Assembly: GCA_023374045.1 (NCBI GenBank)
Contig: CM041776.1
Location: forward strand, 285,461,873 to 285,525,872
DNA from: Limonium bicolor
Taxonomy: Eukaryota > Streptophyta > Magnoliopsida > Caryophyllales > Plumbaginaceae
Direction: 5' to 3'
DNA length: 64,000 nucleotides
Program-made: the position numbers and the translations under genes
Notes under the pieces: model-generated
Databases searched by the model: none
The model's input: the letters and a program-made list of their open reading frames with translations, nothing else
What the model was told of the DNA's origin: nothing
Shown here: in pieces, positions 4,646 through 54,775 of the stretch
Layout of the letters: each line of letters starts with the position of its first letter
How positions within the stretch are numbered: the first letter of the stretch is position 1

Positions 4646-6517
4646 TCCTATGAAATACCCCGTAATTAAAAAATAGTGATTAATTAGGTTAATAAGTATT
4701 TTAGAAGCTTAATTATGTCTAAATAATCATGAGGGAACAAATCCCAAAGAAAACGGATCCTTAAAATGGATTAAAAACACTAACGAACCTTAAAGCACGT
4801 TTTTCGAGGAAACCGGGAAAACGTGACTTTAAGCGAGTCAAATAGACTCGTAACAATTTTGGTCAACTAAATAGTCATTAATTAATATTAGTGAAGCTTT
4901 AGGACCAATAAAATCAATAAAACGAGGAAATAGTAAAAACTGTCAAAAACGGGAAGTTGTGGGGTGAGAGTGTAATTAAAATAAGTTAGTTTGTCCACTT
5001 TCAAATAAAAATGTAAAGTGTGTGTGTGTGTGTGTGTGCTGTATGGGCCGGTTTACTGCCCTCTATCACACCCCTCTCTTAATTCCCTCCTTATGTGCTA
5101 ACAAACAAAACAAATAAAAAGCAAAAAGTAAACACTCTCTCTCCTCACACACTACTCTCTCACGTTTTTATTTTGCCCAGCACTCTCTCTTCTTCCTCTC
5201 TGGTCCAGCCATGGCGATTTGAGAACCCACATACAGAGCCCTCTTCTTCTTCATTTTTGAAACCTCAAATCACCACCAAATGCAACAAAAATTATACCGT
5301 TGAATTCGTATCGCTTCGGAGAACATTTTACACCCTTCAAAAATCTAAAACCTCCAACTTTAGTTTTGAGGGTATAATCGTTTTAGAGCTTGAGGAGCAC
5401 CATTTGGAGGCCCATCTTCTCCTTCATGTTCTAAGGTAAGAAAAAGACCAAAGCTTCACTCTTTTCCATTTTTCCTTGCAAAGTCAAAACTCACGTGAGC
5501 AACCCTATTGCATTGTTCAGCCGATTTTGGCATGCCACTGTGAGAGCTGAAGCCTTGTCACTTTCTACCTAAACACTCCATTAGAAGCTCAAGGTAAGAG
5601 TTCCTAAGAGTTTAAGTGGTTTCTCATAATCTAGGGTTTAATACATGAGATAGAAAATTTACTAGTTTGGTGTGTATGTGTATGCCTTGTTACATGGTGT
5701 AGCTTAGCTTAATTAAACCAAGAAAACAAAGAAGGAAAACGGAGCAAGAAAGGAGAAGGAGAGAAAGGAAAAGAACCAAGGAAACGCAAGGTAATGAGAA
5801 GCCTTGTACGATTTTTAATGTTTATGTATGTGTAGGTATATTACTGTAACAATGTTTAAGCCACTATAACCGTAGGAAAGGAATAGGTACATTAATGTGA
5901 ATGGTAATTGTAGTGGAAGCTTTTGAAAAACAAATAAACAAGTGCTAAGTGTAAATTGTTAAGTGTGCAGTAAGTATTTAGAATGTGGTGTGAGTAATGT
6001 ATATGTTGAGCAGGTTGTGAATATATTGAGTGTGCAAAACTATGTGGTGAGAACACTTAGAAATGTAGGCAAACCCGGTCAAAATTTGGTTAGAAATCTA
6101 GATACTTGTTGCTGTTAGAAAAGAAAGAAACAGATGGGTTTTACAGAGAAGAAAAGAGTGGGATGTTCACTTTGTTTTGTGACAGGAAAAGGAGATGTAG
6201 TTGAGTGGAGTTGTAAATGGTGTATTGGGAGTTGTCAAACTAAGTTGGGCTAGTGTAAGAGTCATTGAGTTAGTGGGAAGAAGAGAAGGAAAATCTGTAG
6301 CATGAATGGAGAAGGAAAAATTATAACAGGGAGAGAAAAACTGGCATATAAGTGTGTAGTGTAACAGATATGGTTAGAGGTGGATTATGCTAGCTTAAGT
6401 TTCTTAATCAATGTTAAAACATGCTAGATTATATGAAGGAATATTAGGGAAGAAATTGATAGAAATTTGGAATTTAAACAAGTTGAAAAAACTTACACAA
6501 ATTGTAAAACTGCAACT

Positions 6518-6845
6518 GGTCCGGGACTGTAAACCGGTACAGAAACCCGGACCAGCATAAAAACACGACAGAAAGTTTTACAGAGGAGTGGTACGGGTTT
6601 ACAAACCAAGACACTAGCCCGGACCACCCCAAAAACATACCTGTAACTTACCAAAACATGTGGTCCGGGTTTGCAAAGGAGTACACAAACCCGGACCACA
6701 CGAAAAATTTACCCCTAACTAATCAACATATGTGGTCCGGGTTTGCAGGGCCGGACATAAACCCGGACCAGTAGTTAAACTCACCCGAGGACTTTTCTAA
6801 TGTGTTGGTTCGGGTATGTAAACCCTGACAACATCCCGGACCAAC
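6518..6845 (+). repeat. GTCCGGG/CCCGGAC inverted-repeat array, gypsy1 5' LTR
   Basis: About five degenerate units of 70-90 bp. Each has GGTCCGGG (or close) followed 20-40 bp later by CCCGGACC, able to form a GC-rich hairpin. It is repeated at 16892-17206 in the 3' LTR. Confidence 0.8.
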
Positions 6846-7965
6846 CCCAAAATTGTACAGAACATGTTTAAAACGTAATCTAAGGCAGGTTAAGGATGGG
6901 TGATGGTATTATGAGATAATTAAGACATAATTAATGATGTTTAAAGGTCATTAAGGCTATAAGCAAGCTTAGAGAATAATTTTAAGTAAGCGACTTAAGT
7001 AAATGTATTTGAACAACAATGAATTAGTAAGTATAAATCATAAAATGTTAGTAAAGTAATTAGTAAGGTTAAGTAAGGGTAATTAACCACCCAATTGTAT
7101 GTATATGTTAGGATTTGGATTGTGAACACCGGAGGAACGTCGGATACAAGTACAACGGTGAATGGTATGAATTCCTCATGCCCCGTATGTTATCTTGGTT
7201 ACTCTGATTTGTGTGTTGTGTGCTAATTGATCACCAAATAAGATAAACGCACGAATAGGACATAGTATGCTTACTTGTGAATATCATGAGATTGTTCCTT
7301 GTTGCATATCTTCTTAAATCATAGTTTGTATAATTCATGAAATGTATGGATGAATATGAGTGTGTGCATGTATGATGTACTGTATTGTGACCGAATGTGA
7401 TTGTGATTGGACTTCTAACTGATTCCTAACAAGCTAACCAATCTAACTTAAATTGGTAATTAAATTGGAATGAGTAGTTTCGGCCACGCGTGAGGATGCG
7501 GAGACACAAGAGGTTGGATCCAAGTCCTGACTCTTAAACTGGTCCGCGGCCCAAACCCCTTAAATGGGTAGCATCCCGGATTGGTGAGTCAAGTAAATCC
7601 CGGTGGTGGGATGGTGTAGTCCCCGGGCCGGAGGTCATACAGACTTAACATGAGTAAATGTAAGTAAGTAAGAATGAGTAAGTAAATATGGAAAAGTAAG
7701 TAAGTGTAAGTAAGAGTAAGCAATGTGTAATGAGTAAAAGAGTAAAAAGCATTCCGATTAACCCGGATGCGTAATTTGGCTAACCCTTGTGAAGGTAAGG
7801 ATTGTGTATGCTATTGTATTGTTGCCTTGGATTATGTATTGTATTGAGCATGAATGTATGATGTATGTAAAGCATGTATGTGTGAAATTAATGAACCGCA
7901 TGTACAGTCGACCTTAAATAGTCGGCGTACCCTAGCTAGCACGCGGTATATGCGGAGTTTATGCG

Positions 7966-8013
7966 CAGCTTTTGCTGAGCCCCTTGGGGCGATGTTTTTA
8001 CTATACGCAGGTA
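7966..8013 (+). promoter_or_regulatory. Double hairpin plus T-run plus GCAGGTA, gypsy1 5' LTR
   Basis: CAGC-TTTT-GCTG is followed by GCCCC-TT-GGGGC, then TTTTTA and GCAGGTA. It looks like a structured 3' splice acceptor (pyrimidine run then CAG|GT). The same order occurs in all six gypsy LTR copies of the window with different stem and loop bases. Confidence 0.6.
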
Positions 8014-8485
8014 CTCGAGAAGGGTGAAGACCATGAAGAGATTTGAGTTGATCTCTTTTGTCTGTAAATAATGAAATGTGAAAGGTGTAATATGTTGTAC
8101 ACGGCTGTAGGTTTTTGTTAGCCGGTGTACCATGGGGTACACCCTTTTGGATAATGAAAGAATATTAGGAAGATGTAGATGAGTAGCTTGTAAAAACTCA
8201 TTCTTTTGGGAAGATTAAAAAGGGATGTAATTAAATACTTTAAATACTCGGTAATCCAGCAATGTAAGTATGTTATCTTTCATAATTGGTATGGGTAGTA
8301 GTAGCTCGGTATACTTAGGCATCAGACCGTCACTGTAGGTAGTGTAAGCCTTGCTAACCGTATGGCCGGTTAGCGGCGTTGTATCACCCGCCGTAGTAGT
8401 AGTAGTATTTCCGCTGCGAACTGATAGAATCAACAGGACGATTAGACGGTAAGAATAGGATTAACGGTAGGGGTGTTACAGAAAG

Positions 8486-8497
8486 TGGTATCAGAGC
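8486..8497 (+). other. gypsy1 primer binding site
   Basis: TGGTATCAGAGC, complementary to the initiator-Met tRNA 3' end, five bases after the 5' LTR. Confidence 0.95.
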
Positions 8498-9373
8498 GAA
8501 GTGTCGCTCTGATGTCCATAGTTACCGAGCATAGGGGTTACCGAGTTAGGATTTCAACCGTCTTAAGACGGATACTTATAAACCTAACTAGGAACTACCG
8601 TTGTTAACAACGGATACCCTTGACGTTCTTAGGAACGATATCTTTGCTTAAATACCAGACCCTTAGGTCACATCTTGCAAAGCCTAATGTAAATGCTAAA
8701 TGTTCAGATGTCAGGACGAGGCCGAGGCCGAGCTAGAGGCGAAGCCTCTGAAGGACCTGATGCGCAGACGATAGCTGGGATCGTCGCCGCCACGGTAGCG
8801 CAGATGCTACCGTAAGTAATCAATGATATGCAGCAAAACCAACAGAACCAACAGACTCAAATGGGACCAATCCCGCCCCCTCCACCCAGAGAAGTAAACT
8901 GGGTAAAAGCTATCGCAGATCTCCGACCTCCGTGCTTTAGAGGCGAGAGCGATCCTGCTAAGCTCGAAGCTTACATCTCCGAAATGGAGACTGCATTTGA
9001 GACTCTCGAATGTCCTGATGGAGTTCGAGTGAGACTAGCCGCCTACTACCTCAAGGATGCAGCCATAGATTGGTGGAAATTAGTCAAGAACGACCATGTC
9101 AACGATCCTACCTTCGACTGGGAATCCTTCACCGCTATCCTCCGATCCAAATACTATCCGGAACATGTAAAGACTAAGAAAAGGCTAGAGCTGGATGCCC
9201 TGAGAATGACAGACAAGATGTCTGTGGATGAGTACTACCGCACTTTCACCTCTCTTCTACGTCTACTACCCGACCTTGGTTATACCGGCCAGGTGTTGGT
9301 CGATCGCTTCTATGGCGGTCTGAGCCATCGCCTTCGGTACGACATGGGCTACACCAGATTTACCTCTCTTCAG

Positions 9374-9471
9374 GTAAATATCGGTTTAACCCTTAGTACC
9401 ATTGTAAATTCCTAAATCTTTACCTTACCTTCTTTCTAAAATAAGAATCCCGGCTAATACCTGAACTTCAG
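9374..9471 (+). other. gag intron 1 (gypsy1)
   Basis: 98 nt from GTAAAT to CTTCAG, between 'TSLQ' and 'ECYHAA', phase 0. Read through, it gives a stop. gypsy2 has an unrelated 86-nt insert at exactly the same codon. Confidence 0.8.
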
Positions 9472-9751
9472 GAGTGTTATCACGCGGCATCTCGCGTTGA
9501 GATCACTTGCCAGATGAGGGATGAAGAAACCGCGCTTAAGCGCAAGGCCAAAAACAAGAATACCAGTGCCGAGGAGCAGAACCGGGGTAAGAGCTGGAAA
9601 AATAAGAAGGGAAAGTTCTTTCAGCAAACCCAAAAGAGCTTCCCAAGTGATAGCATTGCCCATGCTAAGAAGGGCAACCCGGTTGAGATTCTTCAGCTAG
9701 GTTCATCTGCACCGGTGGCTGCGAAGCCACTGAGATCACACCCACCAAAGG

Positions 9752-9833
9752 GTAAACTTCTAATCTAATTCGTATTTGCATAAGTATCATTCCTAGTATC
9801 TCCACACAAATGTGCTAACTCTCAAAACCTTAG
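9752..9833 (+). other. gag intron 2 (gypsy1)
   Basis: 82 nt from GTAAAC to CTTAG, phase 1, within a glycine codon after 'PPK'. gypsy2 has an 81-nt insert at the same codon and phase. Confidence 0.8.
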
Positions 9834-10178
9834 GTTCTGGCTCCGGTTTCACCAAAAACTTCTCCGACGGCCGCACCTACGTGTGCAGAAAGTGCAACCA
9901 AGACCATCCCGGCAAGGATTGCTATGGGAGAGAAATCAAGTGCTATAACTGTCAGAAACCGGGACATAGAGCTAATATGTGCCCAGAGAATGCTAAGCCC
10001 AGAGGAAACTTCCAGAGCTACAAGCAAAGGGAAGGCAAGGAGGTTGCATCTAGCGATGCACCAGCCCAGCAGGCACCACAGGGACAGGGATCCCGGGGTC
10101 CTCAGAGGGGCACACCCCAGAGGCAGCCTGTCTTGCATTTCACTGACCATGACGGGTCCGGTTCTAAGTCCAGCCTAG

Positions 10179-11212
10179 GTAACTAATCTAAACCTTGAAT
10201 CCTTGAGAAGCATGTCTGAGTATTAGAGTAACTGTTGAATGAATGCATAAATGAATGAATAGAAGTGTGTATTGAGCATGAAAAGAAGTAGTTGAAACTA
10301 GTACTCACCGTAGATGAAATTTATAACCATAGGAAGCTTTCGTATCTGTTATCCGATACCTTCGAAACCGAATCAAGAAGAGATCGACATCACCAATCAC
10401 TACTACACCAACAAAAAGTGTCAGGTCATCCGACCAGGTATGATTTTATTAAGGGGATACCTGACACCCGAAGCACAAATCTCAATTATTCGACGATGTA
10501 ACGAGCTAGGAACGGGTCGAGGAGGATTTTATACACCCGAATTCCCCGGTGGAGCGAAGATGAAGCTGAAGATGATGTGCTTGGGAAAGGACTGGAATCC
10601 TTACACCAAGACATACCAAGAGACACGGAAGCAAGACGGAGCAACGCCACCAACAATACCTCCAGAATTTCAAACACTTGTAGCACAAGCAGTAGAACTT
10701 ACACAACAATGCGAACATGATCCGATTCCCGCACTTGAAGCGGACCTATGTATCGTCAACTTCTATGAGAAAGAAGGACGACTTGGGTTACACCAAGACA
10801 AGGACGAGACAGCAGAATCTCTTGAACAAGGAGTGCCCGTAGTGTCTTGGTCCATTGGTGATGACGCCGTATTTATGTATAGCGAGCAGAAGCGTGTGGA
10901 CCTCGCAGAGAGACTGGTATTGAGATCAGGAGATGTCCTAATCATGGGTGGAAACTCTAAGATGCTGTATCACGGGATCAATAAGATCAAGTTGAATACG
11001 GCACCGCCGGCAATAATCAATGCCACACACATGAAACCAGGACGCCTGAACTTTACCTTTAGAAAGTATTAAATTCATAGTATCATGTAATGTATTAGTA
11101 ACGTGTATTAGAGACACGGTATGTATGATGGTTGGTTTATCAATAAAGAGCAGTGTTGATTTAATTCCACTTGTGTCCACCATCATTACTTAACCACTTG
11201 TAAATCCCACAG
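10179..11212 (+). other. Intron containing the AlkB exon (gypsy1)
   Basis: 1034 nt from GTAACT to CCCACAG. Removing it joins gag to protease in frame at phase 1 (base 10178 with 11213-11214). An alternative acceptor at 10331-10332 joins the same donor, also in phase 1, to the AlkB reading frame that starts at 10333. gypsy2 shows the same donor, the same two acceptors and the same phases. Confidence 0.8.
10333..11072 (+). CDS. AlkB-type 2OG-Fe(II) dioxygenase, alternative terminal exon
   Basis: An intact 245-codon frame ending at TAA 11070-11072. It also has an in-frame ATG at 10314; numbering here is from that ATG (252 residues). The jelly-roll catalytic signature is complete: iron ligands H160 and D162 in 'LGLHQDKDE', H220 in 'MLYHGI', and 2-oxoglutarate arginines R244 and R250 in 'RLNFTFR'. 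Such enzymes remove methyl groups from nucleic-acid bases by oxidation. The 'HQDKDE' and 'VSWSIGDDA' words look most like plant ALKBH1D-type proteins. It lies within the intron separating gag and protease, so splicing from 10178 would fuse it to Gag. No lesion is seen, although pol next to it is broken. Substrate (m6A, m1A, 6mA) is unknown. Confidence 0.9.
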
Positions 11213-14200
11213 GTTGTGGACTCGGTACCGAAGGTAACCTGAGTATCCTCACCGAAGCACAAGCCGGCAAAAGCGGCACCATTCTAACGGGAACCTTCCC
11301 AGTGAACGGCGTTGAAGCCGATGTGTTATTCGACTCCGGCGCCTCTCACACCTTCGTATCACCATCTTTTGTGAAGAGGTTGAAGCTAGATGCGGATGAG
11401 CTACCGAACTTCTTGGTTACTCTCCCATCCAAGGAGCGAATACGGTGTACCAAATATTACAAGTCAGCCACCATCGAAATCAAAGGCGAATCATTTCCCA
11501 TCTCCTTCATCGAGTTTAATGGGTTTGGATTTGATGTAATAGTCGGAATGAATTGGTTGGAGCGGCACAAGGGTAGAATCCTCTGCGCCGAGCATCGATT
11601 GCTACTCAAGAGTCCTTCTGGGTTACCGTATCTTACCGCCAGAGACCGAGGGAGCATTCGACCACACTCATCTCCGCTATGGCCATGTATCGGGAGCTCA
11701 GAAAGGGCCATGAAGTGTATTTGTGTTATGTACAAGACCTGGAGAGGGATCCAGAGTTCAGTGATGATGTACCGGTTGTATCTGAATTTCTCGATGTATT
11801 CCCTAAGGAGCTACCCGGCATGCCACCTCAGAGAGCGGTAGAATTTGAAATTGACCTCGTGCCAGGTACCGGTCCTATTGCTAGGGCACCGTACCGCATG
11901 GCACCTACTGAAATGACAGAGCTGAAAGAGTAGTTACGTGACTTACTCGACAAAGGGTTTATACGCCCGAGCGTATCACCCTGGGGAGCACCGGTCCTCT
12001 TTGTGAAGAAGAAGGACGGTAGCCTCCGACTTTGTATTGACTACTGCGAGTTGAATGCAGTTACAATCAAGAATAAATACCCATTACCACGCATCGACGA
12101 CCTATTCGACCAGCTGAAAGGAGCCTCAGTCTTCTCCAAGATCGACCTCCGTTCTGGGTATCATCAGATTGCCATCAAAGAGCAAGACATTGAGAAAACG
12201 GCATTCCGTACCAGATATGGCCACTACGAATTCACCGTCATGCCATTCGGTTTGTCAAACGCACCAGGGAAATTCATGGATCTCATGAATCGACTATTCA
12301 GTGAGCAGTTGGACACTTCGGTTGTTGTCTTCATCGACAACATCCTTGTATACTCAAAATCAGCAGAGGAACACGAAATTCATTTGAGGAAAGTACTTGA
12401 GACACTGCGCGAGAACCAGCTGTATGCGAAGTTCTCCAAATGTGAGTTCTGGCTAGATCAGGTATCATTCCTTGGTCATGTCATCTCGAGCGCAGGTATC
12501 TCAGTTGACCCTTCTAAGATAGAAGTTGTACGATCATGGCCTAGACCTAAGACTGTTACCGACATTCGGAGCTTTCTTTGTCTAGCCGGTTACTACCGGA
12601 TATTCATAAAGGACTTCTCAAAAGTCGTTAAGCCCATGACTACACTGATGAAGAAAGATGCACCGTTTGTATGGACAGACGAGTGTGAATTATCATTTCA
12701 GAGTCTAAAGGACTCATTGACCTCAGCGCCCATCCTCACTCTTCCAGAGGGCACAGAGGGATTTGAGGTATATTGTGATGCATCAGGCAAGGGAATGGGA
12801 TGCGTACTCATGCAGCATGGCAAGGTTGTAGCGTATGCCTCCCGCTAGCTGAAAAAGCATGAGGAGAATTACCCGACACACGACTTAGAGTTAGGAGCCA
12901 TTGTCTTCGCCTTGAAGATATGGCAACACTATCTATATGGGGTAAGCATCACCATCTACTCCTACCATAAGAGCTTACAGTATGTATTCACCCAGAAAGA
13001 ATTGAACTTGAGACAGAGAAGGTGGATGGAGTTTCTTTCAGACTACGACATCGACCTACAGTATAAGGAAGGGAAGGCAAACATTGTAGCCAACGCCCTG
13101 AGCCGTCGAGCACACTCGCTCCATTCACTACTCGCTTCTTCTAGCTTGGTTGATGAGGTGCGAGACGCTCAGTTGTGCGACCCTTACCTAACCGAAATCA
13201 GACAAAAGATCAAAAATGGTACATTTGAGAAGAAGAAGTAGGGCTTTAAGCTACATGAAGATGGTCTGATTCGACTGAATGGCAGGCTATGCGTCCCCCG
13301 AAGCAATGCTAAGCTAAGGGATCGCATCCTGTGGGAGTCACACAGTTCCACATTGTCAGTCCATCCAGGAGCCTCCAAGATGTACAAAGACATGAAGAGG
13401 TACTTCTGGTGGTCTGGGATGAAGATGTGGCAGAGTATATATTGAGATGCTTGACATGTCAGAAAGTAAAATTTGAACATCGTAGACCGGGTGGAATGGT
13501 ACAATCGATGCCAGTTCCAGAGTGGAAATTTCACGATATCTCTATGGATTTTGTTGTAGGACTCCCACCTGCTAGGGGAGGACTCAACATGATCTGGGTT
13601 GTAATCGATCGCCTCACCAAGGTTGCCAGATTCATACCGATGAAGGACACCTGGAAGGTAGTGAAGCTCGTAGAGCTATTCGACAAGGAGATTATCAGAC
13701 ATCACGGAGTCCCGAAAACTATAGTATCTGACCGCGACACCAGATTTCTTTCGAGATACTGGAGAGCTACACGGGAAGCGCTGGGTACAAAATTGAAGTT
13801 GAGTACCACCTTCCATCCTCAGACCGACGGTCAGACAGAAAGGACCATCCAGACACTGGAGGACATGCTTCAGGCATGTGCCTTAGACTTTCAGGGGAGT
13901 TGGTTAGATAAGCTTCATCTTATCGAGTTTTCATACAATAATAGCTACCATGCTTCGATTAAGATGTCGCCTTTCCAAGCCCTATATGGTAGACCTTGTC
14001 GTACACCTTTGTGTTGGGATGAGTCAAGCGAAGCGGTCATCATAGGACCGGAGTATCTAGAACAAGTCCAAGCGGAAGTGCAACAAATCCGAGCCAATAT
14101 GAAGGCAGCCCAAGATAGACAGAAATCCTATGCGGATGTGAGACGACGCGATCTTGAGTTCGCCGTGGGTGACCAAGTGTTCTTGCGAGTTTCACCTATG

Positions 14201-14596
14201 AAGGGTGTATTCCGTTTTGGTCAGAAGGGCAAACTGAGCCCAAAGTTTGTAGGGCCGTACACTATCACCGAGAGAGTTGGATCTGTAGCCTATAGGTTAG
14301 CATTACCTGAGGACTTGGGACGTGTTCATGATGTTTTTCATGTGTCACAACTTAAGAAGTACATTTCTGATCCTTCTCATGTCCTAGAGCCCGAGAGACT
14401 ATCCATAGAGCCGACAATGAGATATGTCGAGACCCCCGTGAGAATCCTTGATAGGAAGACCAGAGACACTCGCCATAAGTCTATACGAATGGTGAAGGTC
14501 CTATGGTCAAACCATGATGTCGAAGAAGCGACATGGGAATTGGAAGATGCCATGAAGGCGAAGCACCCACAGTTATTCATAGACTATATAGTCTAG
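11213..14596 (+). pseudogene. gypsy1 protease-RT-RNase H-integrase, inactivated
   Basis: Protease 'VLFDSGASHTFVS' is near 11326. RT runs from about 11940 with '[16 protein letters not shown]', '[12 protein letters not shown]' and 'MPFGLSNAP'. The catalytic box reads '[10 protein letters not shown]', so the second Asp is Asn. RNase H has 'EVYCDASG', but the later Asp is replaced in 'IYSYHKS'. Integrase has '[17 protein letters not shown]', 'SMDFVVGLP', 'VSDRDTRF' and '[11 protein letters not shown]'. The C-terminal end is chromodomain-like. Lesions: frameshift about 11620-11630, TAG 11931-11933, TAG 12846-12848, TAG 13239-13241, frameshift about 13420-13430. The enzyme cannot be functional. 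Confidence 0.95.
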
Positions 14597-15039
14597 TATT
14601 TAGTACATACGGGTACGGGGCGTACCCCTTTTAAGGGGGGTAGAGCCTTTTTGCTTTTACATTGCTTCGGGTGAGCATTGCATAGTGTGCGGGTATTGCA
14701 ATATGTTTTGATGGCACATGTAGTGCGGAGTGTGTTGGCATGTGAATGTATGTAGGTGTAATGTGTAGTGTATGGATGTGTATGTGCAATGTATGGTGTA
14801 TTGGTGTAATGTGTATTGTGAATTACAGTGGTGTATTGTGTAATGTAGATGTGATGGTATGTATGAAAAAGGTGCATTGTGTATGTGAATTCATATTGTG
14901 CTTGAATTGTGTATGCTTGCAATGTGGAAGGAAGTAAACACCTCATAGGTGGTAGTAAGACACATTATGGCAACTGGTTTGCCTAAGGAGTAGAATTATT
15001 AAACTATTAACCTTGAGCAACTTTGAGGGCAAAGTTTCT
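14597..15039 (+). other. gypsy1 3' untranslated tail
   Basis: About 440 bp between the pol stop and the PPT. It has a short inverted 'GTACGGGGCGTACCCC' and AAGGGGGG near 14616-14640, shared with gypsy2 (54791-54820) and in reverse with gypsy3 (about 35370). A TGTA/GTGT-rich low-complexity stretch follows (14700-14930). No protein is indicated. Confidence 0.7.
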
Positions 15040-15040
15040 T

Positions 15041-15051
15041 AAGGGGGTAGA
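15041..15051 (+). other. gypsy1 polypurine tract
   Basis: AAGGGGGTAGA directly before the 3' LTR, the plus-strand primer site. gypsy2 and gypsy3 have the same motif at the same place. Confidence 0.9.
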
Positions 15052-15052
15052 T

Positions 15053-18000
15053 TGAAATACCCTGTAATTAAAAAATAGTGATTAATTAGGTTGAGAAGTA
15101 TTTTAGAGGCTTAATTATGTCAAAATAATCATGAGGGAACAAATCCTTAAGAAAATGATCCTTAAAATGGATTAAAAACACTAACGAACCTTAAAGCGCG
15201 TTTTTCGAGTAAACCGGGAAAACGTGACTTTAAGCGGGTCAAATAGACTCGTAACAATTTTGGTCAACTATATAGTCATTAATAAATATTAGTGAAGCTT
15301 TAGGACCAATAAAATCAATAAAACGAGGAAATAGTAAAAACTATCAAAAACGGGAAGTTGTGGGGTGAGAGTGTAATTAAAATAAGTTAGTGTGTCCACT
15401 TTCAAATAAAAATGTAAAGTGTGTGTGTGTGCTGTATGGGCCGGTTTACTACCCTCTCTCACACCCCTCTCTTAATTCCCTCCTTATGTGCTAACAAACA
15501 AAACAAATAAAAAGCAAAAAGTAAAACACTCTCTCTCCTCACACACTACTCTCTCACGTTTTTATTTTGCCAGCACTCTCTCTTCTTCCTCTCTGGTCCA
15601 GCCATGGCGATTTGAGAACCCACATACAGAGCCCTCTTCTTCTTCATTTTTGAAACCCGAATCACCACCAAATGCTACAAAATTATACCGTTGAATTCGT
15701 ATCGCTTCGGAGAACATTTTACACCCTTCAAAAATCTAAAACCTCCAACTTTAGTTTGAGGTATAATCGTTTTAGAGCTTGAGGAGCACCATTTGGAGGC
15801 CATCTTCTTTCATGTTCTAAGGTAAGAAAAAGACCAAAGCTTCACTCTTTTCCATTTTTCCTTGCAAAGTCAAAACTCACGTGAGCAACCCTATTGCATT
15901 GTTCAGCCGATTTGGCATGCCACTGTGAGAGCAGAAGCCTTGTCACTTTCTACCTAAAACTCCATTAGAAGCTCAAGGTAAGAGTTCCTAAGAGTTTAAG
16001 TGGTTCTCATAATCTAGGGTTTAATACATGAGATAGAAAATTTACTAGGTTTGGGTGTAGTGTATGCCTTGTTACATGGTGTAGCTTGGCTTAATTAAAC
16101 CAAGAAAACAAAGAAGGAAAACGGAGCAAGAAAGGAGAAGGATAGAAAGGAAAAGAAACCAAGGAAACGCAAGGTAATGAGAAGCCTTGTACGATTTTTA
16201 ATGTTTATGTATGTGTAGGTATATTACTGAACAATGTTTAAGCCACTAAACCGTAGGAAGGAATGGGTACATTAATGTGAATGGTAATTGTAGTGGAAGC
16301 TTTTGAAAAACAAATAACAAGTGCTAAGTGTCAATTGTTAAGTGTGCAGTAAGTATTTAGAATGTGGTGGAGTAATGTATATGTTGAGCAGGTTGTGAAT
16401 ATATTGAGTGTGCAAAACTATGTGGTGAGAACACTTAGAAATGTAGGAAAACCCGGTCAAAATTTGGTTAGAAATCTAGATACTTGTTGCTGTTAGAAAA
16501 GAAAGAAACAGATGGGTTTTACAGAGAAGAAAAGAGTGGGTGTTCATTTGTTTGTGACAGGAAAAGGAGATGTAGTTGAGTGGAGTTGTAAATGGTGTAT
16601 TGGGAGTTGTCAAACTAAGTTAGGCTAGTGTAAGAGTCATTGAGTTAGTGGGAAGAAGAGAAGGAAAATCTGTAGCATGAATGGAGAAGGAAAAATTGTA
16701 AGAGGGAGAGAAAAACTGGCATATAAGTGTGTAATGTAACAGATTTGGTTAGAGGTGGATTATGCTAGCTTAAATTGCTTAATCAATGTTAAAACATGCT
16801 AGATTATATGTAGGAATATTAGGGAAGAAATTGATAGAAATTTAGAATTTAAACAAGTTGAAAAAACTTACACAAATTGTAAAACTGCAACTGGTCCGGG
16901 TCTGTAAACCGGTACAGAAACCCGGACCAGCATAAAAACACGACAGAAAGTTTACAGAGGAGTGGTACGGGTTTACAAACCAAGACACTAGCCCGGACCA
17001 CCCCAAAAACATACTTGTAACTTACCAAAACATGTGATTCGGGTTTGCAAAGGAGTACACCAACCCGGACCACACGAAAAATTTACCCCTAACTAATCAA
17101 CATATGTGGTCCGGGTTTGCAGGGCCGGACATAAACCCGGACCAGTAGTTAAACTCACCCGAGGACTTTTCTAATGTGTTGGTCTGGGTATGTAAACCCG
17201 GACCAACCCCAAAATTGTACAGAACATGTTTAAAACGTAATCTAAGGCAGGTTAAGGATGGGCGATGGTATTATGAGATAATTAAGACATAATTAATGAT
17301 GTTTAAAGGTCATTAAGGCTATAAGCAAGCTTAGAGAATAATTTTAAGTAAGCGACTTCAGTAAATGTATTTGAACAACAATGAATTAGTAAGTATAAAT
17401 CATAAAATGTTAGTAAAGTAATTAGTAAGGTTAAGTAAGGGTAATTAACCACCCAATTGTATGTATATGTTAGGATTTGGATTGTGAACACTGGAGGAAC
17501 GTCAGATACAAGTACAACGGTGAACGGTGTGAATTCCTCATGCCCCGTATGGTATCTTGGTTACTCTGATTTATGTGTTGTGTGCTAATTGATCACCAAA
17601 TAAGATAAACGCACGAATCGGACATAGTATGCTTACTTGTGAATATCATGAGATTGTTCCTTGTTGCATATCTTCTTAAATCATAGTTTGTATAATTCAT
17701 GAAATGTATGAATGAATATGAGTGTGTGCATGTATGATGTAGTGTACTGTGACCGAATGTGATTGTGATTGGACTTCTAACTGATTCCTAAAAAGCTAAC
17801 CAATTTAACTTAAATTGGTAATTAAATTGGAATGAGTAGAAGTCCGATATAGTTTTAGCCACGCGTGAGGATGCGGAGTCACAAGAGGTTGGATCCAAGT
17901 CCTGACTCTTAAACTGGTCCGCGGTCCAAACCCCTTAAATGGGTAGCATCCCGGATTGGTGAGTCAAGTAAATCCCGGTGGTGGGATGGTGTAGTCCCCG

Positions 18001-18851
18001 GGCCGGAGGTCATACCGACTTAACATGAGTAAAAGTAAGTAAGTAAGAATGAGTAAGTATGGAAAAGTAAGTAAGTGTAAGTAAGAGTAAGCAATGTGTA
18101 ATGAGTAAAAGAGTAAAAAGCATTCCGATTAACCCGGATGCGTAATTTGGCTAACCCTTGTGAAGGTAAGGATTGTATATGCTATTGTATTGTTGCCTTG
18201 GATTATGTATTGTATTGAGCATGAATGTATGATGTATGTAAAGCATGTATGTGTGAAATTAATGAACTGCATGTACAGTCGACCTTAAATAGTCGGCGTA
18301 CCCTAGCTAGCACGCGGTATATGCGGAGTTTATGCCCAGCTTTTGCTGAGCCCCTTGGGGCGATGTTTTTACTACACGCAGGTACTCGAGAAGGGTGAAG
18401 ACCATGAAGAGATTTAAGTTGATCTCTTTTGTCTATAAACAATGAAATGTGAAAGGTGTAATATGTTGTACACGGTTGTAGGTTTTTGTTAGCCGGTGTA
18501 CCATGGGGTACACCCTTTTGGATAATGAAAGAATATTGGGATGATGTACATGAGTAGCTTGTAGAAACTCATTCTTTTGGGAAGATTAAAAAGCGATGTA
18601 ATTAAATACTTTAAATACTCTGTAATCCAGCAATGTAAGTATGTTATCTTTCGTAATTGGTATGGGAAGTAGTAGCTTGGTATACTTAGGCATCAGACCG
18701 TCACTGTAGGTAGTGTAAGCCTTGCTAGCCGTATAGACGGTTAGCGGAGTTGTATCACCCGCCGTAGTAGTAGTAGTATTTCCGCTGCGAACTGATAGAA
18801 TCAACAGGACGATTAGACGGTAAGAATAGGATTAACGGTAGGGGTGTTACA
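15053..18851 (+). repeat. gypsy1 3' LTR
   Basis: 3799 bp, collinear with 4651-8480 and differing by scattered substitutions and short indels. It carries the same landmarks: donor-like sites at 15822, 15978 and 16174, the inverted-repeat array 16892-17206 and the double hairpin 18337-18384. The moderate divergence suggests an insertion older than gypsy2. Confidence 0.95.
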
Positions 18852-21241
18852 TCCTAAATCCTTGACTGGAAATTTGTGAGATAGGGTAGTGATTAGGGCT
18901 TTGAGAAGAGAGGTTGAGGAACCGGTCAAGAGGATATCATCCACATAAATGAGAGCATAAACCGTGTGTGATCCTTGATGAAAAACAAATAAGAAAGAGT
19001 CCTTGACAGATCCCACAAACCCTAGCTCCAACAAATAGGAACTCAAAGTAGAAAACCAAGCTCTAGGAGACTACTTACGTCCATAGAGAGCTTTTCTTAA
19101 CTGACAAACATGATTTGGAAATTGAGAATCAACAAAACCTGGAGGTTGACTCACAAAAACCTCTTCCTCCAACTCCCCATTCAGAAAAGCGTTCTGAATG
19201 TCCAACTGTTGTATAGGCCAATCCCTAGCAACCGCAAGAGCAAGCACAATTATAATGGTTGCCATTTTAACAACTGGGATGTAGGTTTCTCCATAATCCA
19301 CCCCTTCCTTTTGATTGAACCCTTGGGCCACTAAACGGGCCTTGCGCCTCTCAATACTGCCATAAGCACACAACTTAGTCTTCCGCACCCATTTTACCCC
19401 AAGAACATTAGAACCAGGAGGTTTAGGCACCAAGTCCCACGTTTTGGTTTCCAACAAAGCCTGATATTCCTTCTGCATAGCTGTTGTCCACTCAGGGTAG
19501 TTTAAAGCTTGTTTGAAGGTAGGTTCAAAGGGTATAGAGACATATGAGGAAATAGTAGTGGAATTGGTCTGAAGAGGATGATGCCAAGGAATGGTACCAT
19601 CAGTCCTTTGAAGTGGCTTAGTAATGTTATTCTTAGCGCGAGTGACCGTAGGGTGAGGCTGCTGAACAACAGGTAGGGAAGGAGAGTCTAGAGAGGATGA
19701 TGGTGAAGGTGTAGTGATGGGTAAGGGTGATGTAGAAGCTGTGGTGATAGGTGAGGGTGATGGGGTAGAAAAGGATGAACCATTATGTGTGGTACTTGGC
19801 TCAGGTGGTAAAGGAGTAGGTGAGTGTGATGTAGTGGTGGTAGAGGTCATATGAGGAACAACAAGGGGTAGTATTTGTGGAGTTTGTGTAGGTGGAGTGG
19901 AAGGTAAGGAGGGAACTGAAGCCATAGGAAAGTGAGCTTCATTGAATAGCACATCTCGACTGATATAATTCCTACCAGAATTAGGACAGTAGCAAATATA
20001 TTGATGCTTGGGAGAGTACCCCAAGAATATACACTCAACAGACCTGAAAGTCAACTTATGTGCATTGTGAGGCCTTAAATTAGGCCAACATGCACAGCCA
20101 AACACCCTCAGCATAGAATAAACAGGAGCTACCTTAAAAAAAACTTCATAAGGACTCTTAAAAGAGTGCAGCTTAGTAGGTATCCTATTCAATAAGAACA
20201 CAACAGTAGTAAAGGCATATGACCAAAACCGTATAGGCAAAGCAGACTGAGATAGGAGGGTAAGACCTTTGTCCACAACATATCTATTTCTGATCTCAAC
20301 AGCACCTTGTTGTTGATGTGAATAAGGACAGCTCAGGCGATGTAGAATCCCTTTCTTAGACAATAGTTCCTTTAGGGCCATAAATTCACCCCCACCATCT
20401 GTTTGAATTGCTTTAACCGAGGCAGAAAAATAATTCCCAACAAGGGCTAGAAATTGCTCAAGCAACAGAACAACATCAGATTTTCTTGAAAAAGGGAAAA
20501 GCCAAACATATTTGGAATAATCATCCACAATAATAAGTAAGAATTTATAACCATCAATAGATGTAGTAAATGCTGGTCCCCATACATCAAGAAACAAAAG
20601 CTCAAAAGGACTAGAGGCCCTAGAATGAGTAAGGTAATGTGGAAAGGCGTGGTGTTTTCCTACACAACAGGCATTACAAAAAGTGGCACTATGTGTCTTA
20701 TCAACTGGAAGATTAAAAACACTAAGACTATTATTTGTAATCTGTATGGATGGATGACCAAAACGCTGGTGCCAGTCAGCAAAAGTGGTCTTGGATCCTG
20801 GCAGCAACTTTGTGGAATTCAAACTGGGGCTTATTGTTGTGGGAAAAACATAGACTCCATTCTTAACATTACCTTGAAGAAGCACTTTCTTTGTCTGAAT
20901 ATCCTTCAAAACAAAAGAATCGGCATAAAATTTGAAGTAAGTGTTATTGTCTTGACAAAACTGTCTCACAAAGATCAAATGTTTGTGGAGGTGTGGGGAG
21001 TGATATATAGGAGACAATTGAAAAGAGCCAGAGGGATAAGTGAGGCAACCTGATCCTTGATAGGAAATAGGAAGAGAAGTGTCATCCCTTAGGGAAATAG
21101 TATCGGGACCAGAGTAATCCTGAGCTAAGAGATTCAGTCGAGACATATCTCCTGTAAAGTGATGAGTGGCTGCTGTGTCAGGCAGCCACTCATGAGAAAC
21201 AGATCTCCTTGTAGCATTAGCAGAAAAGAAGGGCGGGGGAC
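18852..21241 (-). pseudogene. copia protease-integrase-RT polyprotein
   Basis: The frame opens with a protease-like 'WLPDTAATHHFTG' just upstream of 21146 and runs through GAG-pre-integrase 'WHQRFGHP' and 'CNACCVGKHH'. Integrase follows with catalytic blocks 'FLDVWGP', 'IQTDGGGEF' and 'QQGAVEIRN' (D, D, E all present). A Ser/Thr/Pro-rich linker leads into RT with 'WVRKTKLCAYGSIERRKARL', 'LDIQNAFLNGEL' and, beyond the break, 'IYVDDILLTG' (YVDD intact). One TAG at about 19068-19070 interrupts RT within 'ALYGRK*SPRAWF'. gypsy1 interrupts the gene again 3' of the YVDD box. Confidence 0.9.
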
Positions 21242-22360: not shown

Positions 22361-22372
22361 GCTCTGATACCA
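22361..22372 (-). other. copia primer binding site (initiator Met tRNA)
   Basis: The minus strand reads TGGTATCAGAGC directly inside the LTR end, the standard initiator-methionine PBS of plant LTR elements. Confidence 0.9.
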
Positions 22373-22403
22373 TATTAATAAAGCTAAGTAGAGAGAGTGA
22401 CTG
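22373..22403 (-). repeat. copia 5' LTR stub
   Basis: Only the last 31 bases of the 5' LTR remain. They match 3593-3623 up to GACTG, where gypsy3 begins at 22404. The intact 3' LTR copy shows the uninterrupted sequence at this point, which proves an insertion here. Confidence 0.85.
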
Positions 22404-25400
22404 TGTAACACCCCAACCGTTAATCTCGTCATTACCTCTTAAACCGTCACTAATTACTCTTACTCACACAGCGGAACTCTAATTACAACGAGGGGTGAAA
22501 CAACGCCGTTAGCCACCCATGTGGCTAACCAGCGTTTCTTACATACCGTAACGGTCTGATGAACTAGAACAACCGAGTACCCAACAGAAATACAAACTCA
22601 ACTCATCACTTTGCTATACCGAGTCTACACTATACGGATGCCGATAACATACTCGGACTTAAACCTCATTCAAATGCATAAGTAATTACAATCTAACTAC
22701 CCATGCTTCATAGCAGTCCCCGTCCTACTCTCTCAAATGGTGGTCAGCTTCAAGTACCTGCACACTAAAAACGTTCCCCCTAGGGGGTCAGCTTACGCTG
22801 AATATGAATTTCGCATATACCGCGTGCTAACCGCGGTACGCCGACTACTTTGGGTCGGATATACATGGAGTTCATTTTAATCAAACAACATGCATCATAG
22901 CAATACAATATATAAATATATTACACAAGGATTCTACATCCAATCATGGAACACAATTCCTAACTAACATAACAAGGTTGTTAGTTGTATCTGTTTACTC
23001 TTAGGCCTTGAGGGTTATACCTCACTATGCCTTGTTTACTTATTCAATACCTCACCCGCTCTCTCGGGTTACTTATTCATATACACACCCATTCTCTTGG
23101 GCTACTCGTACTATACTCACCCACACTCTCGGGTTACTTATTCTCATTATCTCACCCACACTCTTGGGTTATTTATACTCATTATCTCACCCACACTCTT
23201 GGGTTATTCATACTCAAGCTCTTGTAGATTCTCGGGACACTACAGGTCTCCTACGTCACGCTTGTTACTCTGAATACATACTTAGGCCAAAACTCATGGC
23301 TCTCAAGCATAGTCTTACTTCCCCGGTTTCGACCCTACTCCGGGTCTAGCATGGTGGGAAGGTTCAACTAGCTCACGTAACTCTCTCTTAGTTCCTATCT
23401 CTTTTTACTTAGGTCCGACTACTCTCGGACTACCCTCATTCCCATACAATCCTCTCTCGGAGTTATAATAATATTATGTATATTAGTCTAGAAGCATCAC
23501 TCTCGATGTTTCTAATGACTTGGGAACATTACTTTAGTTCGGTTAATCTTGGGTTTTGAGAGTTACCCATACATTCCACTTAGTCATACTTTCGGTTATT
23601 TTCTTAAATCGGTAAAATCCTCATATAGGAGGTCGACCGTGTCTCAAGGGTATCACATAGTCCCTCAGGTCTCTTTTACCTTTCTTATGTTCACAACATT
23701 GGACTAACTTTAATCCTCTCAATGGAGGTTCATCATCTCCCCACTCATAATTTCGTGGATTGTTTCGATAAGGTTTTATAACCGTTATCGGGTATTTACT
23801 CAGCCCGTACATCTCCTCACATTCTAGGGGGTTCATATGACTACGTTATCGATGTACTTTAGTCGATAGTTTATGTGTTTGCACGTTTTCGTTATCATAC
23901 GCATCGACCAGATCTAAGGGTCTCTAACCAAACGTTACTCATTAGGAGTCGGTCTTTACACTATGTTAGACCTCACCGGAATTCAAGCATTTAGCTCATA
24001 CAATATACATCAAGACATACATAAACAACCAATGGTTCAACTTCATGCTTTAGTCTTGATTAAGCCGGCACACAAACACACAAATCAGAGTAACTCGGTT
24101 AGCATACGGGGCATGAGAAAATCATACCTTTCACCGGGGTTTTTACTCTACAGTGGCATCTCACCATGCTCAGGTCACGCACGACTCTCTGATAATGTTT
24201 CAAACATTATTATTAATACTAAGATCATACGGTACATAATTAAATGCTACTCCCGTACTTACCCCGTTTATCCCGTTATCTCGGTTTTACACTTGTTAAT
24301 TTGAGTTCTCATTTCTCACTCTCTTCTAACACTTTCTTACACTTCTTAGGGCCTTTACATGTCACCAAACAAGGCCTTAACATCTTATAACATCATTAGC
24401 ATTCAAACCCCCATCATTAGCAACCTTTAAAACACTCACGGGGCAATTCTGGGGGTGGTCCGGGACTTGGTCCTTACCTAAAGTCCCGGACCAATTGTTT
24501 TCCTAACTCTCGGCTGATTTTAGACTATGGTCCGGGACCTTGTCCTGGAGTATAGTCCCGGACCAGGGGTGTTCTGCAACTCTCGACCGTTTTTAAAGTG
24601 TGGTCCGGGACTTTGTCCAAGGACCAAGTCCCGGACCCTGCTAAAACCTGCTCCAAACTTGATTTTTCCACTCCAAATCAATCCTTAAACCACCCTTAAT
24701 CTTTCCATAAACTTTCCACAAGTTTTCCACATGTTTAACCACCTTTAAACATGCTCCAAACCTCTTCAAATCATGGGTTAAACCCTTACCCAAATTCTTA
24801 CTCAAAATCACTTATTTTGCATTCTAATTTTGCACTAAGGCACACTTGTGCATTTTCTAACTCCTCTTGGCACTTGCATTTGCACTCACTAATTTGGCCA
24901 TTCCAAAACTTCCAAGATAATGCACACCGAATACCAAGTTCCAAGACTCACTCTTAAAGCCTTAAATCTTCTTTGTTTTCTAAAAACTCCCTAGGCACTA
25001 ATCCACTCTTTTGCTACAGATTTTGCATCAATTTCCTCCCCTTGAACAAGCCTTCCTTAAGTGATTAACTAACTCAACTAAGTCTCCATCCACACCTAGC
25101 TAGTTTCTCTAGGTCATTCCTCACACACAACTATGCTCAAACCACTCACATTTCTACACAAATTTCGCCATAACTTGGCTACTTTTCTAACTTTGCCCAA
25201 AGTTGGTCTCATCACATTATTCAACTAAAACTAACCAAACCCATCATGGGTTCTACCAGCACACACAAGTTCACCCATACTCATCAAATTCTACAAATTC
25301 AACTCAATTCATAAATCATAAAGTGCATAACTCTTAGGCTCTTACATCAAGCATTATTTCACAAATGTTTTCTCACTTGCACTATCACAATACAAGCACA

Positions 25401-39006: not shown

Positions 39007-39018
39007 GCTCTGATACCA
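39007..39018 (-). other. gypsy3 primer binding site
   Basis: Minus-strand TGGTATCAGAGC, four bases from the LTR end. The following leader resembles gypsy1 for about 90 bases and then diverges completely. Confidence 0.9.
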
Positions 39019-39022
39019 TTTT

Positions 39023-40730
39023 TGTAACACCCCAACCGTTAATCTCGTCATTACCTCTTAAACTGTCACTAATTACTCTTACTCACACAGCGGAAATCTA
39101 ATTACAACGAGGGGTGAAACAACGCCGTTAGCCACCTATGTGGCTAACCAGCGTTTCTTACATACCGTAACGGTCTGATGAACTGGAACAACCGAGTACC
39201 CAACAGAAATTCAAACTCAACTCATCACTTTGCTATACCGAGTCTACACTATACGGATGCCGATAACATACTCGGACTTACACCTCATTCAAATGCATAA
39301 GTAATTACAATCTAACTACCCATGCTTCATAGCAGTCCCCGTCCTACTCTCTCAAACGGTGGTCAGCTTCAAGTACCTGCACACTAAAAACGTTCCCCCT
39401 AGGGGGTCAGCTTACGCTGAATATGAATTTCACATATACCGCGTGCTAACCGCGGTACGCCGACTACTTTGGGTCGGATATACATGGAGTTCATTTTAAT
39501 CAAACAACATGCATCATAGCAATACAATATATAAGTATATTACACAAGGATTCTACATCCAATCATGGAACACAATTCCTAACTAACATAACAAGGTTGT
39601 TAGTTGTATCTGTTTACTCTTAGGCCTTGAGGGTTATACCTCACTATGCCTTGTTTACTTATTCAATACCTCACCCGCTCTCTCGGGTTACTTATTCATA
39701 TACACACCCATTCTCTTGGGCTACTCGTACTATACTCACCCACACTCTCGGGTTACTTATTCTCATTATCTCACCCACACTCTTGGGTTATTTATACTCA
39801 TTATCTCACCCACACTCTTGGGTTATTCATACTCAAGCTCTTGTAGATTCTCGGGACACTACAGGTCTCCTACGTCACGCTTGTTACTCTGAATACATAC
39901 TTAGGCCAAAACTCATGGCTCTCAAGCATAGTCTTACTTCCCCGGTTTCGACCCTACTCCGGGTCTAGCATGGTGGGAAGGTTCAACTAGCTCACGGAAC
40001 TCTCTCTTAGTTCCTATCTCTTTTTACTTAGGTCCGACTACTCTCGGACTACTCTCATTCCCATACACTCCTCTCTCGGAGTTATAATATATTGTATATT
40101 AGTCTAGAAGCATCACTCTCGATGTTTCTAATGACTTGGGAACATTACTTTAGTTCGGTTAATCTTAGGTTTTGAGAGTTACCCATACATTCCACTTAGT
40201 CATACTTTCGGTTATTTTCTTAAATCGGTAAAATCCTCATATAGGAGGTCGACCGTGTCTCAAGGGTATCACATAGTCCCTCAGGTCTCTTTTACCTTTC
40301 TTATATGTTCACAACATTGGACTAACTTTAATCCTCTCAATGGAGGTTCATCATCTCCCCACTCATAATTATTTCGTGGATTGTTTCGATAAGGTTTTAT
40401 AACCGTTATCGGGTATTTACTCAACCCGTACATCTCCTCACATTCTAGGGAGTTCATATGACTATGTTATCGTTGTACTTTAGTCGATAGTTTATGTGTT
40501 TGCACGTTTTCGTTATCATACGCATCGACCCGATCTAAGGGTCTCTAACCAAACGTTACTCATTAGGAGTCGGTCTTTACACTATGTTAGACCTCACCGG
40601 AATTCAAGCATTTAGCTCATACAATATACATCAAGACATACATAAACAACCAATGGTTCAACTTCATGCTTTAGTCTTGATTAAGCCGGCACACAAACAC
40701 ACAAATCAAAGTAACTTGGTTAGCATACGG
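39023..40730 (-). repeat. gypsy3 5' LTR, truncated
   Basis: Nearly identical to 22404-24109, with a few substitutions and small indels. It stops at 40730, exactly where the CACTA terminus begins. The missing part (equivalent to 24110-26808) is not found on the other side of the CACTA element. Confidence 0.9.
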
Positions 40731-47775: not shown

Positions 47776-47790
47776 TTTTTTCTACTAGTG

Positions 47791-48743
47791 TTTGATGGTT
47801 GTTGGTTAATGCCCGTTAAGGCTTAGCTAGCACATGGTGTTTAAGATGTCTACTAACTGGAACTTGAGTGAGGAAACCCGGGACCGATCTCCGGTCATGC
47901 ATGCTAAGGAAAAAGGGGGACGGTATCTGAATCAGATCCGCCCTCCGCTTAAGGACTTGTCTTCGGACTTGTAGCCTAGGGCCGGTTGCCGGCTCAGCTA
48001 CGCTGGACTCCCGTCCAGAGTAGGTGGCATTAAGATGGTGCGGTGGGATCACCTAAATCCCAGGTTCGAATTAAGCTACAACCAATCCCTTCCAGGAAAG
48101 GTTTGTATACTGAGATTAAGATTAAGATTAAGGTAAGGTAAGGAACTGAGATTAAGGAAATGAGGACTAAGGAGGGGGTTACTAACCCACTTGATAAGGG
48201 AACGCTTGAGTCGTTCATTGTTTGTGAACTATATATGTTCATCTGTGGTTATTGTTATTGCACTTCATATTATGCTTGTGTATGTAATCAATTTCCATGC
48301 TATCGACAATTAGTCGTCGTAGCCCCGTTAGCTTGGGGGCCATGAGAGGGTGTACCAGCATTCGTGCTGACCCCCTCGGGGGCTATTTTTACACTTGCAG
48401 GTAAGAGACCCATGAGGACGCACTACGAGAGTAGGAGCGGTTAGACTTAGGGTGGGATGTTTATTTTGAGTTCGGGTTGCGCCTGTGCACCCGACTGTTT
48501 ATATTAAACTGATGTAAGTTTGAGATTATGTTTAAGATACTAGTACTCGGTTGGTTGTGGTGTTGTGAATGTTGATGTTTTGAGTTGGATAAGTATTTTG
48601 GATAAGTTTTGTAAACGTTAAAGCCGGTATATTCTAACGATCAGACCGTGGCAAGGACCAGGTGTTATTTATTTCCGCTGCGACGTATTCGATTAAGTGT
48701 TCAGTTTGCGATAACCACGATAGGCTTTGGATGGGGTGTTACA
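47791..48743 (+). repeat. gypsy2 5' LTR, 3' portion only
   Basis: 953 bp, collinear with 58258-59210. It contains the double hairpin (48356-48403). The upstream 3.17 kb of this LTR is missing and the CACTA terminus stands in its place. Confidence 0.95.
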
Positions 48744-54400: not shown

Positions 54401-54775
54401 CAGGTTTGGGCAGAAGGGCAAGTTAAGCCCGAAATTTGTTGGTCCTTATGAGATTACGGAGCGGGTGGGCCCGGTTGCTTACAGGTTAAATTTACCTGCT
54501 GAGCTGGGTAAAGTGCATGATGTTTTTCATGTTTCACAGCTAAAGAAATACATGCACCACCCCTCCCATGTGTTAGAACCTGAGAGGTTGACTTTAGAAC
54601 CAAATATGAGATCCGTGGAACTCCTCAGAGAATCTTGGACAGCAAGACTAGGGACACTCGCCACAAGTCAGTGCGACTGGTGAAGGTTCTCTGGTCTAAC
54701 CAGGATGTCGAAGAGGCCACGTGGGAATTAGAGGATAAGATGAGGGCGAAGTACCCTTCTTTATTTACTGACTAG
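51403..54775 (+). pseudogene. gypsy2 protease-RT-RNase H-integrase, frameshifted
   Basis: Protease 'VLFDSGASHTFVS' (about 51511), RT with '[10 protein letters not shown]' intact (about 52510), RNase H 'EVYCDASG', integrase HHCC-like '[16 protein letters not shown]' and catalytic 'SMDFVVGLP', 'VSDRDTRF', '[11 protein letters not shown]', then a chromodomain-like end 'SNQDVEEATWELE' and stop 54773-54775. Frame phases require single-base losses near 51983, 51996, 52109, 52458, 53098, 53158 and 54612. There are no nonsense substitutions. All motifs survive, unlike gypsy1, so this copy was recently active or is miscalled at homopolymers. Confidence 0.9.

Follow-up and report, generated by a model that had tools for sequence, protein, structure and literature searches.

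An ALKBH1-type exon in the gag-pol intron of a Ty3/gypsy retrotransposon of Limonium bicolor, probably spliced as an alternative to pol

This analysis concerns a 64,000-nucleotide stretch of the Limonium bicolor genome (assembly GCA_023374045.1, contig CM041776.1, positions 285,461,873 to 285,525,872 of the forward strand; hereafter the window), and within it a long terminal repeat (LTR) retrotransposon, element 1, together with a diverged relative, element 2. We read element 1 as a Ty3/gypsy element that carries an ALKBH1-type exon in the intron between gag and pol, with one donor at the end of gag that would be spliced either to pol or to AlkB; judged from the DNA, we give this reading a probability of roughly 0.8. 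The domain, three introns, conserved splice sites, selection on AlkB, genomic copies with both joins and an open frame from Gag into AlkB are all present in the sequence. A first-pass annotation of the window, made by a model from the letters alone, had proposed the two splices, and both have now been found as exact joins in genomic copies, 10178|11213 (gag to pol) in five and 10178|10333 (gag to AlkB) in one. It was silent on the two introns within gag, on element 2 and on the broken gag and pol frames, all described below.

The AlkB exon and its setting in element 1

Element 1 occupies 4651-18851 on the plus strand (14.2 kb). Its LTRs (5', 4651-8480; 3', 15053-18851) have TG...CA termini, are 96.2% identical by self-comparison of the window (Kimura two-parameter distance 0.025 over 3784 aligned bases) and are flanked by the target site duplication TCCTA (4646-4650 and 18852-18856). 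The primer binding site TGGTATCAGAGC, which we take to be of tRNA-Met type, lies at 8486-8497. A Pfam search returned gag, protease, reverse transcriptase, RNase H and integrase in that order, as is expected, along with two LTRs and a target site duplication, of a Ty3/gypsy element. A chromodomain match (PF00385, E 6.5e-05) stands in the expected place after integrase, at 23.2 bits for a cut-off of 25.1, and the long LTRs and tRNA-Met type primer site fit the Tekay clade of chromoviruses (PMC3605345).

Within gag, exon 1 (8708-9373) contains a Retrotrans_gag domain and an open reading frame (ORF) from the ATG at 8828; the frame from the ATG at 8708 is interrupted by a stop at 8813. Intron 1 (9374-9471, GT-AG, 66% A+T), exon 2 (9472-9751), intron 2 (9752-9833, GT-AG) and exon 3 (9834-10178), with a CCHC zinc knuckle, follow. 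As the first-pass annotation had it, exon 3 ends in an AG|GT donor after 10178, acceptor AGs stand directly before 10333 and 11213, and both acceptors are entered in the same phase. Intron 3a, from the shared donor to the AlkB acceptor, is 10179-10332 (68% A+T), and the AlkB exon is 10333-11072, with its stop at 11070-11072. A post-AlkB stretch (11073-11212, 66% A+T) contains AATAAA at 11142-11147 and ends in the pol acceptor. The pol exon starts with an RVP_2 protease (11213-11640), followed by reverse transcriptase and RNase H frames split into separate ORFs (12003-13241) and by an integrase and chromodomain frame (13331-14596). This copy of element 1 is not intact because of the gag stop and the splitting of pol; its AlkB frame, unlike gag and pol, is.

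The ORF at 10314-11072, between the gag zinc knuckle and protease, matches PF13532 with E 8.7e-44 (150.5 bits, cut-off 31.2), so that the domain search returned AlkB as had been predicted. Together with the HxD...H and RxxxxxR residues, this identifies the product as an AlkB/2-oxoglutarate (2OG)-Fe(II) dioxygenase. Its closest solved relative is rice ALKBH1 (5xeg, E 2.2e-70). An AlphaFold2 model of the 246-codon exon, built on a 14-row alignment with a mean predicted local distance difference test score of 85.3, has OsALKBH1 as its best fold match (5xoi/5xeg, template modelling score 0.89 by target). By best sequence match and best match of predicted fold, the exon groups with the ALKBH1 type. 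Residues N143, Y145, H154, D156, H214, R238 and R244 (exon numbering), to which we presume catalytic roles, are kept in elements 1 and 2. The corresponding roles are listed for ALKBH5 (PMC9289625).

The first-pass annotation had set this domain beside the AlkB domains of plant RNA virus replicases. We searched proteins for relatives (530 matches, of which the best 120 were examined) and built a tree of 51 rows, drawn from 204 proteins plus the two window exons, with ALKBH5/9/10 left out. Both window exons fall with P0001, P0002, P0003 and P0005 in one clade (support 99/98) apart from the plant ALKBH1C/D proteins, with a long-branched algal row adjoining the clade. An origin from a plant RNA virus is unlikely, because ALKBH1-type proteins of plants and the members of this separate clade stand closest to the exon, and as a source of the exon the viral comparison was set aside. 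A scan of viral contigs with a six-AlkB alignment gave 244 pattern stretches, none of which was confirmed by tblastn.

The exon of element 1 shares 173 of 246 residues with that of element 2. By the NG86 method dN is 0.177 and dS 2.39, a dN/dS of about 0.07 with silent sites near saturation; the 73 amino-acid differences compare with 127 expected if the exon were neutral, and none of 1000 simulations gave so few. For gag and integrase dS was saturated, which leaves AlkB, protease and reverse transcriptase with usable values. By these comparisons AlkB is under purifying selection.

We also searched the genome (2.92 Gb, 2686 contigs) with the AlkB sequence and scored 150 near full-length matches among 52,976 first-look candidates. 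By hand count, 122 of these 150 had no internal stop, although the best-scoring copies are a biased set. In all eight AlkB loci that were cut out, gag precedes and protease follows AlkB; one of them (L006) ends within pol. The decay of gag and pol in both window copies would suit an AlkB that is a passenger, an unused copy of a host gene, and additional ORFs of plant elements are often unconserved (PMC6317226). A passenger would not be expected to show so low a dN/dS across such divergence, nor to keep every tested catalytic residue in both elements, nor to stay open in most of the best-scoring copies, and we find this explanation scarcely credible.

Conserved splice sites and exact joins

Three introns and the AlkB exon are common to elements 1 and 2, which are 71% identical in nucleotides over the aligned gag-pol region, and all seven splice sites are GT or AG at aligned places in both. 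In element 2 the gag exon 1 frame (49080-49613) is followed by exon 2 (49700-49951, frame broken), exon 3 with the shared donor (50033-50374), the AlkB exon (50507-51246) and a post-AlkB stretch (51247-51402) with AATAAA at 51319 and the pol acceptor. In both elements AATAAA lies about 70 nt past the AlkB stop, and base composition follows the same division, with 66-72% A+T in the intron stretches and 66-67% in the post-AlkB stretch against 40-50% in the gag exons and 54% in AlkB.

From these eight loci and 20 more we then compared 27 copies beside the window's own, chosen by AlkB similarity, a choice that favours an intact AlkB and its ATG. The seven splice dinucleotides were kept in 181 of 189 cases: the GT and AG of intron 1 in 27 and 25 copies, those of intron 2 in 27 and 23, the intron 3 GT in 26, the AlkB AG in all 27 and the pol AG in 26. 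The base rate at which any dinucleotide was kept was 61% in intron 1, 64% in intron 2, 77% in intron 3a and 83% in the post-AlkB stretch. The AATAAA after AlkB was unchanged in 22 of the 27.

These data bear on whether AlkB is instead made as a protein by itself, with translation starting at an AlkB ATG on an unspliced or shortened RNA, in which case the single gag|AlkB join described below would be rare noise. An ATG at 10314 is in frame with AlkB in element 1 and is kept in 22 of the 27 copies, both elements have an in-frame methionine at the start of the catalytic core (PGM), and one gag|AlkB copy stands beside five gag|pol copies. That ATG, however, is lost in four or five of the 27 copies, whereas the acceptor AG is kept in every one, and among the 150 best AlkB matches a hand count gave 26 that align elsewhere but not at the ATG-coded first residue. 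Upstream of AlkB in element 2 the frame is closed by a stop at 50488, and no ATG follows until residue 37 (50614), yet the residues directly after the acceptor, G-x-F-x-ICYPIPS, are common to both elements. Among the first 12 AlkB codons three are the same, six differ synonymously and three non-synonymously, and 164 of 5000 neutral simulations gave as few changes. Because no ATG lies between the stop and residue 37, this conserved exon start in element 2 needs splicing. An own-start protein is therefore an unlikely account of the exon.

The exact joins were found with junction queries of 220 nt, in which the terminal 110 nt of an exon were fused to the initial 110 nt of the exon joined to it. 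The gag|pol query gave 40 scored matches, 35 of which were half matches and five contiguous (L029-L033, 86-91% identity); all five are joined exactly at 10178|11213, with 10179-11212 precisely absent. In L029, L030 and L031 all three introns are missing, with borders precisely as predicted. L032 keeps intron 1 and exactly lacks intron 3; it was considered as spliced at intron 2 also, but rejected there, as it has an unrelated deletion that starts within exon 2 and reaches nearly as far as the end of intron 2. L033 exactly lacks intron 3 and keeps the intron-2 stretch. A decoy junction with both borders shifted by 60 nt gave no contiguous match in 62 rows.

The gag|AlkB query gave 73 match rows from 40 scored candidates, of which one, L049 (C6:288381265-288381484), was contiguous over all 220 nt at 90% identity and the rest were half matches. 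In L049 exon 2, exon 3 and AlkB are exactly joined, without intron 2 or intron 3a, and intron 1 is kept. Its frame is open from exon 2 across both joins into AlkB, where the first stop comes later. Downstream of AlkB are the post-AlkB stretch, protease and pol. The copy lies inside an LTR element, with 5' LTR sequence before it and pol, the 3' region and the start of an LTR after it; the LTR ends are 98.2% alike over 498 bp, and ATGAC occurs immediately outside the 5' LTR and, on the 3' side, one base beyond the end of the LTR match. On this genomic evidence, the exact joins very likely arose when element RNA, spliced at one or the other alternative acceptor, was reverse-transcribed.

With a query for the exon 1|exon 2 junction, all 40 scored matches were contiguous and lacked intron 1. 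Some of these copies, judged by their coordinates, retain intron 3 together with AlkB (e.g., C7:211354405). Loss of intron 1 thus seems much more frequent than loss of intron 3.

If the intron-less copies were ancestral, the AlkB segment and the introns would have been inserted later, elsewhere in the family. L033, which has no intron 3, is the first to branch on a tree of exon pieces, and how many intron-less copies really exist cannot be read from the first-look counts. The six spliced copies do not form one clade on that tree; they are scattered among intron-bearing copies and need at least five changes, three of them forced by well-supported branches. Element 2 lies far outside (end branch 1.27), yet it shares the three introns and AlkB. 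Later gain would need three separate insertions at GT-AG borders in matched phase, and would have to accommodate L049, which lacks introns 2 and 3a but keeps intron 1 and AlkB, and L033 with its intron-2 stretch. We regard an intron-less ancestor as very improbable.

L030 (C1:339300506) and L031 (C2:131580238) lie on different contigs and hardly differ in the roughly 1.65 kb of exon pieces. They are 98.9% identical over the 9.5 kb compared, and both match pol only to about window position 13828. The pair seems to be an intron-less derivative that has recently spread.

Several observations weigh against alternative splicing into AlkB. Both the splicing and the fusion protein are predictions from genomic DNA. 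The near-identical L030 and L031 have to be counted as one event, and only L029 and this pair are fully spliced, because L032 has a deletion and L033 keeps intron 2. The gag|AlkB copy is single among the scored candidates (2585 at first look, 40 scored), and its RNA ran past the AATAAA, since pol and the 3' LTR follow. AlkB residues 13-36 evolve fast, with three synonymous and 14 non-synonymous codons. By a rough splice-site score built from approximate site frequencies, the sites of element 2 are middling, its donor ranking 16th of 147 GTs, its AlkB acceptor 23rd of 288 AGs and its pol acceptor 38th of 288; by the same score those of element 1 rank better (5th of 159, first of 244 and 16th of 244). 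The gag and pol frames are broken in both window copies. No protein combined AlkB with retroelement Pfam domains among the 120 listed of 481 or among all 21 longer proteins, and there was thus no annotated Gag-AlkB fusion among them.

Element 2 and the remainder of the window

Element 2 was found by self-comparison of the window and extends on the plus strand from 47790 to about 59210, in the order gag, AlkB, protease, reverse transcriptase and integrase. It has a truncated 5' LTR (47790-48743), broken pol frames (51403-54781) and a 3' LTR (55087-59210). Inside the 3' LTR is a tandem repeat of a 73-bp unit, 4.2 times (57430-57734), and just after the element another of a 50-bp unit, 6.6 times (59218-59546).

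Within the AlkB exon, otherwise 72% identical between the elements, 10434-10480 and about 50608-50654 are identical over 47 bases, a run reached in one of 20,000 codon shuffles. The run includes TTAAGGGG, which recurs in the polypurine tract of element 1 (15039) and in that of element 2 (55072). The identity could reflect a second polypurine tract, local recombination or an RNA signal of another kind.

On the minus strand, LTR-like stretches at 22361-24109 and 39007-40730 are 98.4% identical, each beside a reverse-strand TGGTATCAGAGC site. Between them tblastn gave no match to the gag, AlkB or pol parts of element 1, so they may belong to non-autonomous elements. A 691-amino-acid ORF at 19071-21146, also on the minus strand, reads by eye as a Copia integrase-reverse transcriptase polyprotein.

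A proposed splicing switch and its relation to known elements

In the scheme that we propose, the full-length, intron-bearing RNA would serve as the genome. Removal of introns 1 and 2 would give the full Gag frame; the unspliced frame stops after the capsid part (9413-9415). Joining the donor at 10178 to 11213 would give Gag-Pol, whereas retention of intron 3 would give Gag alone, with a stop just past the donor (10184-10186). Joining to 10333 would give a Gag-AlkB fusion, probably ended at the AATAAA. The first-pass annotation had called AlkB an alternative terminal exon. As an alternative exon it stands by the L049 join; as a terminal one, on a short RNA, we infer it from the AATAAA kept in most copies. 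The single gag|AlkB retrocopy would be in keeping with such a short RNA, few molecules of which would extend to the 3' LTR.

The capsid and zinc knuckle of Gag may target AlkB, as an eraser, to the RNA or the particle of the element itself. The predicted enzyme would strip methyl groups, of the N6-methyladenosine (m6A) or N1-methyladenosine type on RNA or N6-methyladenine (6mA) on DNA, marks that might otherwise lead to sequestration of the RNA or slow reverse transcription. ONSEN RNA of Arabidopsis is sequestered when it carries m6A and is released by ALKBH9B (PMC12786077, PMC9289625), and the rice enzyme ALKBH1 takes 6mA in single-stranded or unpaired DNA as its substrate (PMC10469495). Because of these precedents, either the RNA or the new cDNA could be the substrate. 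More tentatively, and as a possibility to which we give somewhat less than even weight, a captured host ALKBH1 may have become an alternative exon, so that splice choice sets polymerase against a Gag-tethered eraser. Assembled together with Gag, Gag-AlkB would then enter the particle along with the genomic RNA and demethylate it, or the new cDNA, before and during reverse transcription; splicing would in this way supply the virus-like particle with an enzyme, and the element would bring its own means of escape from RNA and DNA methylation by the host.

The first-pass annotation knew of no LTR element with such a switch. Within the literature searched this holds for the alternative exon, but gypsy elements with AlkB have been known since 2022: Gypsy_Pa_2799 of Phalaenopsis orchids is a Ty3/gypsy element whose AlkB/2-oxoglutarate-dependent dioxygenase (2-ODD; pfam13532) is kept across many copies, and this protein demethylated m6A RNA in vitro (PMC9289625). 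That study found 2-ODD in the LTR consensuses of no other of its 121 genomes (PMC9289625). The orchid element differs in belonging to the Ogre/Tat lineage and in its length of 25.5 kb, against 14.2 kb and a chromodomain match just below cut-off in element 1. Its ALKBH5-like domain ends a separate ORF2 of 565 amino acids, taken as independently expressed, and its gag-pol is a single intronless ORF (PMC9289625). Element 1 has no such separate ORF beside an intronless gag-pol; its ALKBH1-type exon lies in a gag-pol intron, in frame with Gag.

Alternative splicing of gag and pol is known from EVD and other Ty1/Copia elements, in which it gives separate Gag and Gag-Pol messages, the short form with a poly(A) signal (PMC8892269, PMC12786077). 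Exact joins in genomic copies point to the same type of splicing here, and the conserved AATAAA may correspond to that signal, although the L049 RNA passed it. EVD differs in that it is a Copia element whose full-length RNA is unspliced, and its short form stops soon past the junction without a new domain (PMC8892269, PMC12786077). In element 1 the gag-pol message itself depends on splicing, and the alternative exon codes for an enzyme. Ogre elements, also gypsy, splice an intron of the polyprotein region in part of their transcripts, but that intron parts GAG-PROT from RT-RH-INT and has no alternative coding exon as described (PMC6317226). Plant ALKBH1 (OsALKBH1) is alike in sequence, predicted fold and iron/2OG residues, and differs as a host protein with its own N-terminus, whereas the element exon and its four relatives form the separate clade.

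In open-access PMC texts we found no report of an alternative enzyme-coding exon within a gag-pol intron. Nor did these texts reveal AlkB-bearing LTR retrotransposons beyond the orchid study (PMC9289625), which is cited by a review (PMC12786077). As far as these searches reach, an ALKBH1-type alternative exon in a gag-pol intron would be new.

Genomic retrocopies can record splicing when the RNA is not at hand. Copies of the family abound in the 2.9 Gb genome, so that the junctions, Gag-AlkB peptides and the substrate of the enzyme are directly testable. If our reading is true, the gag-pol intron gains a coding choice, and this would be the second known capture of AlkB by a gypsy element, apparently of another AlkB subfamily and in another lineage. 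Plant retrotransposons would then seem to have a repeated need for methyl removal.

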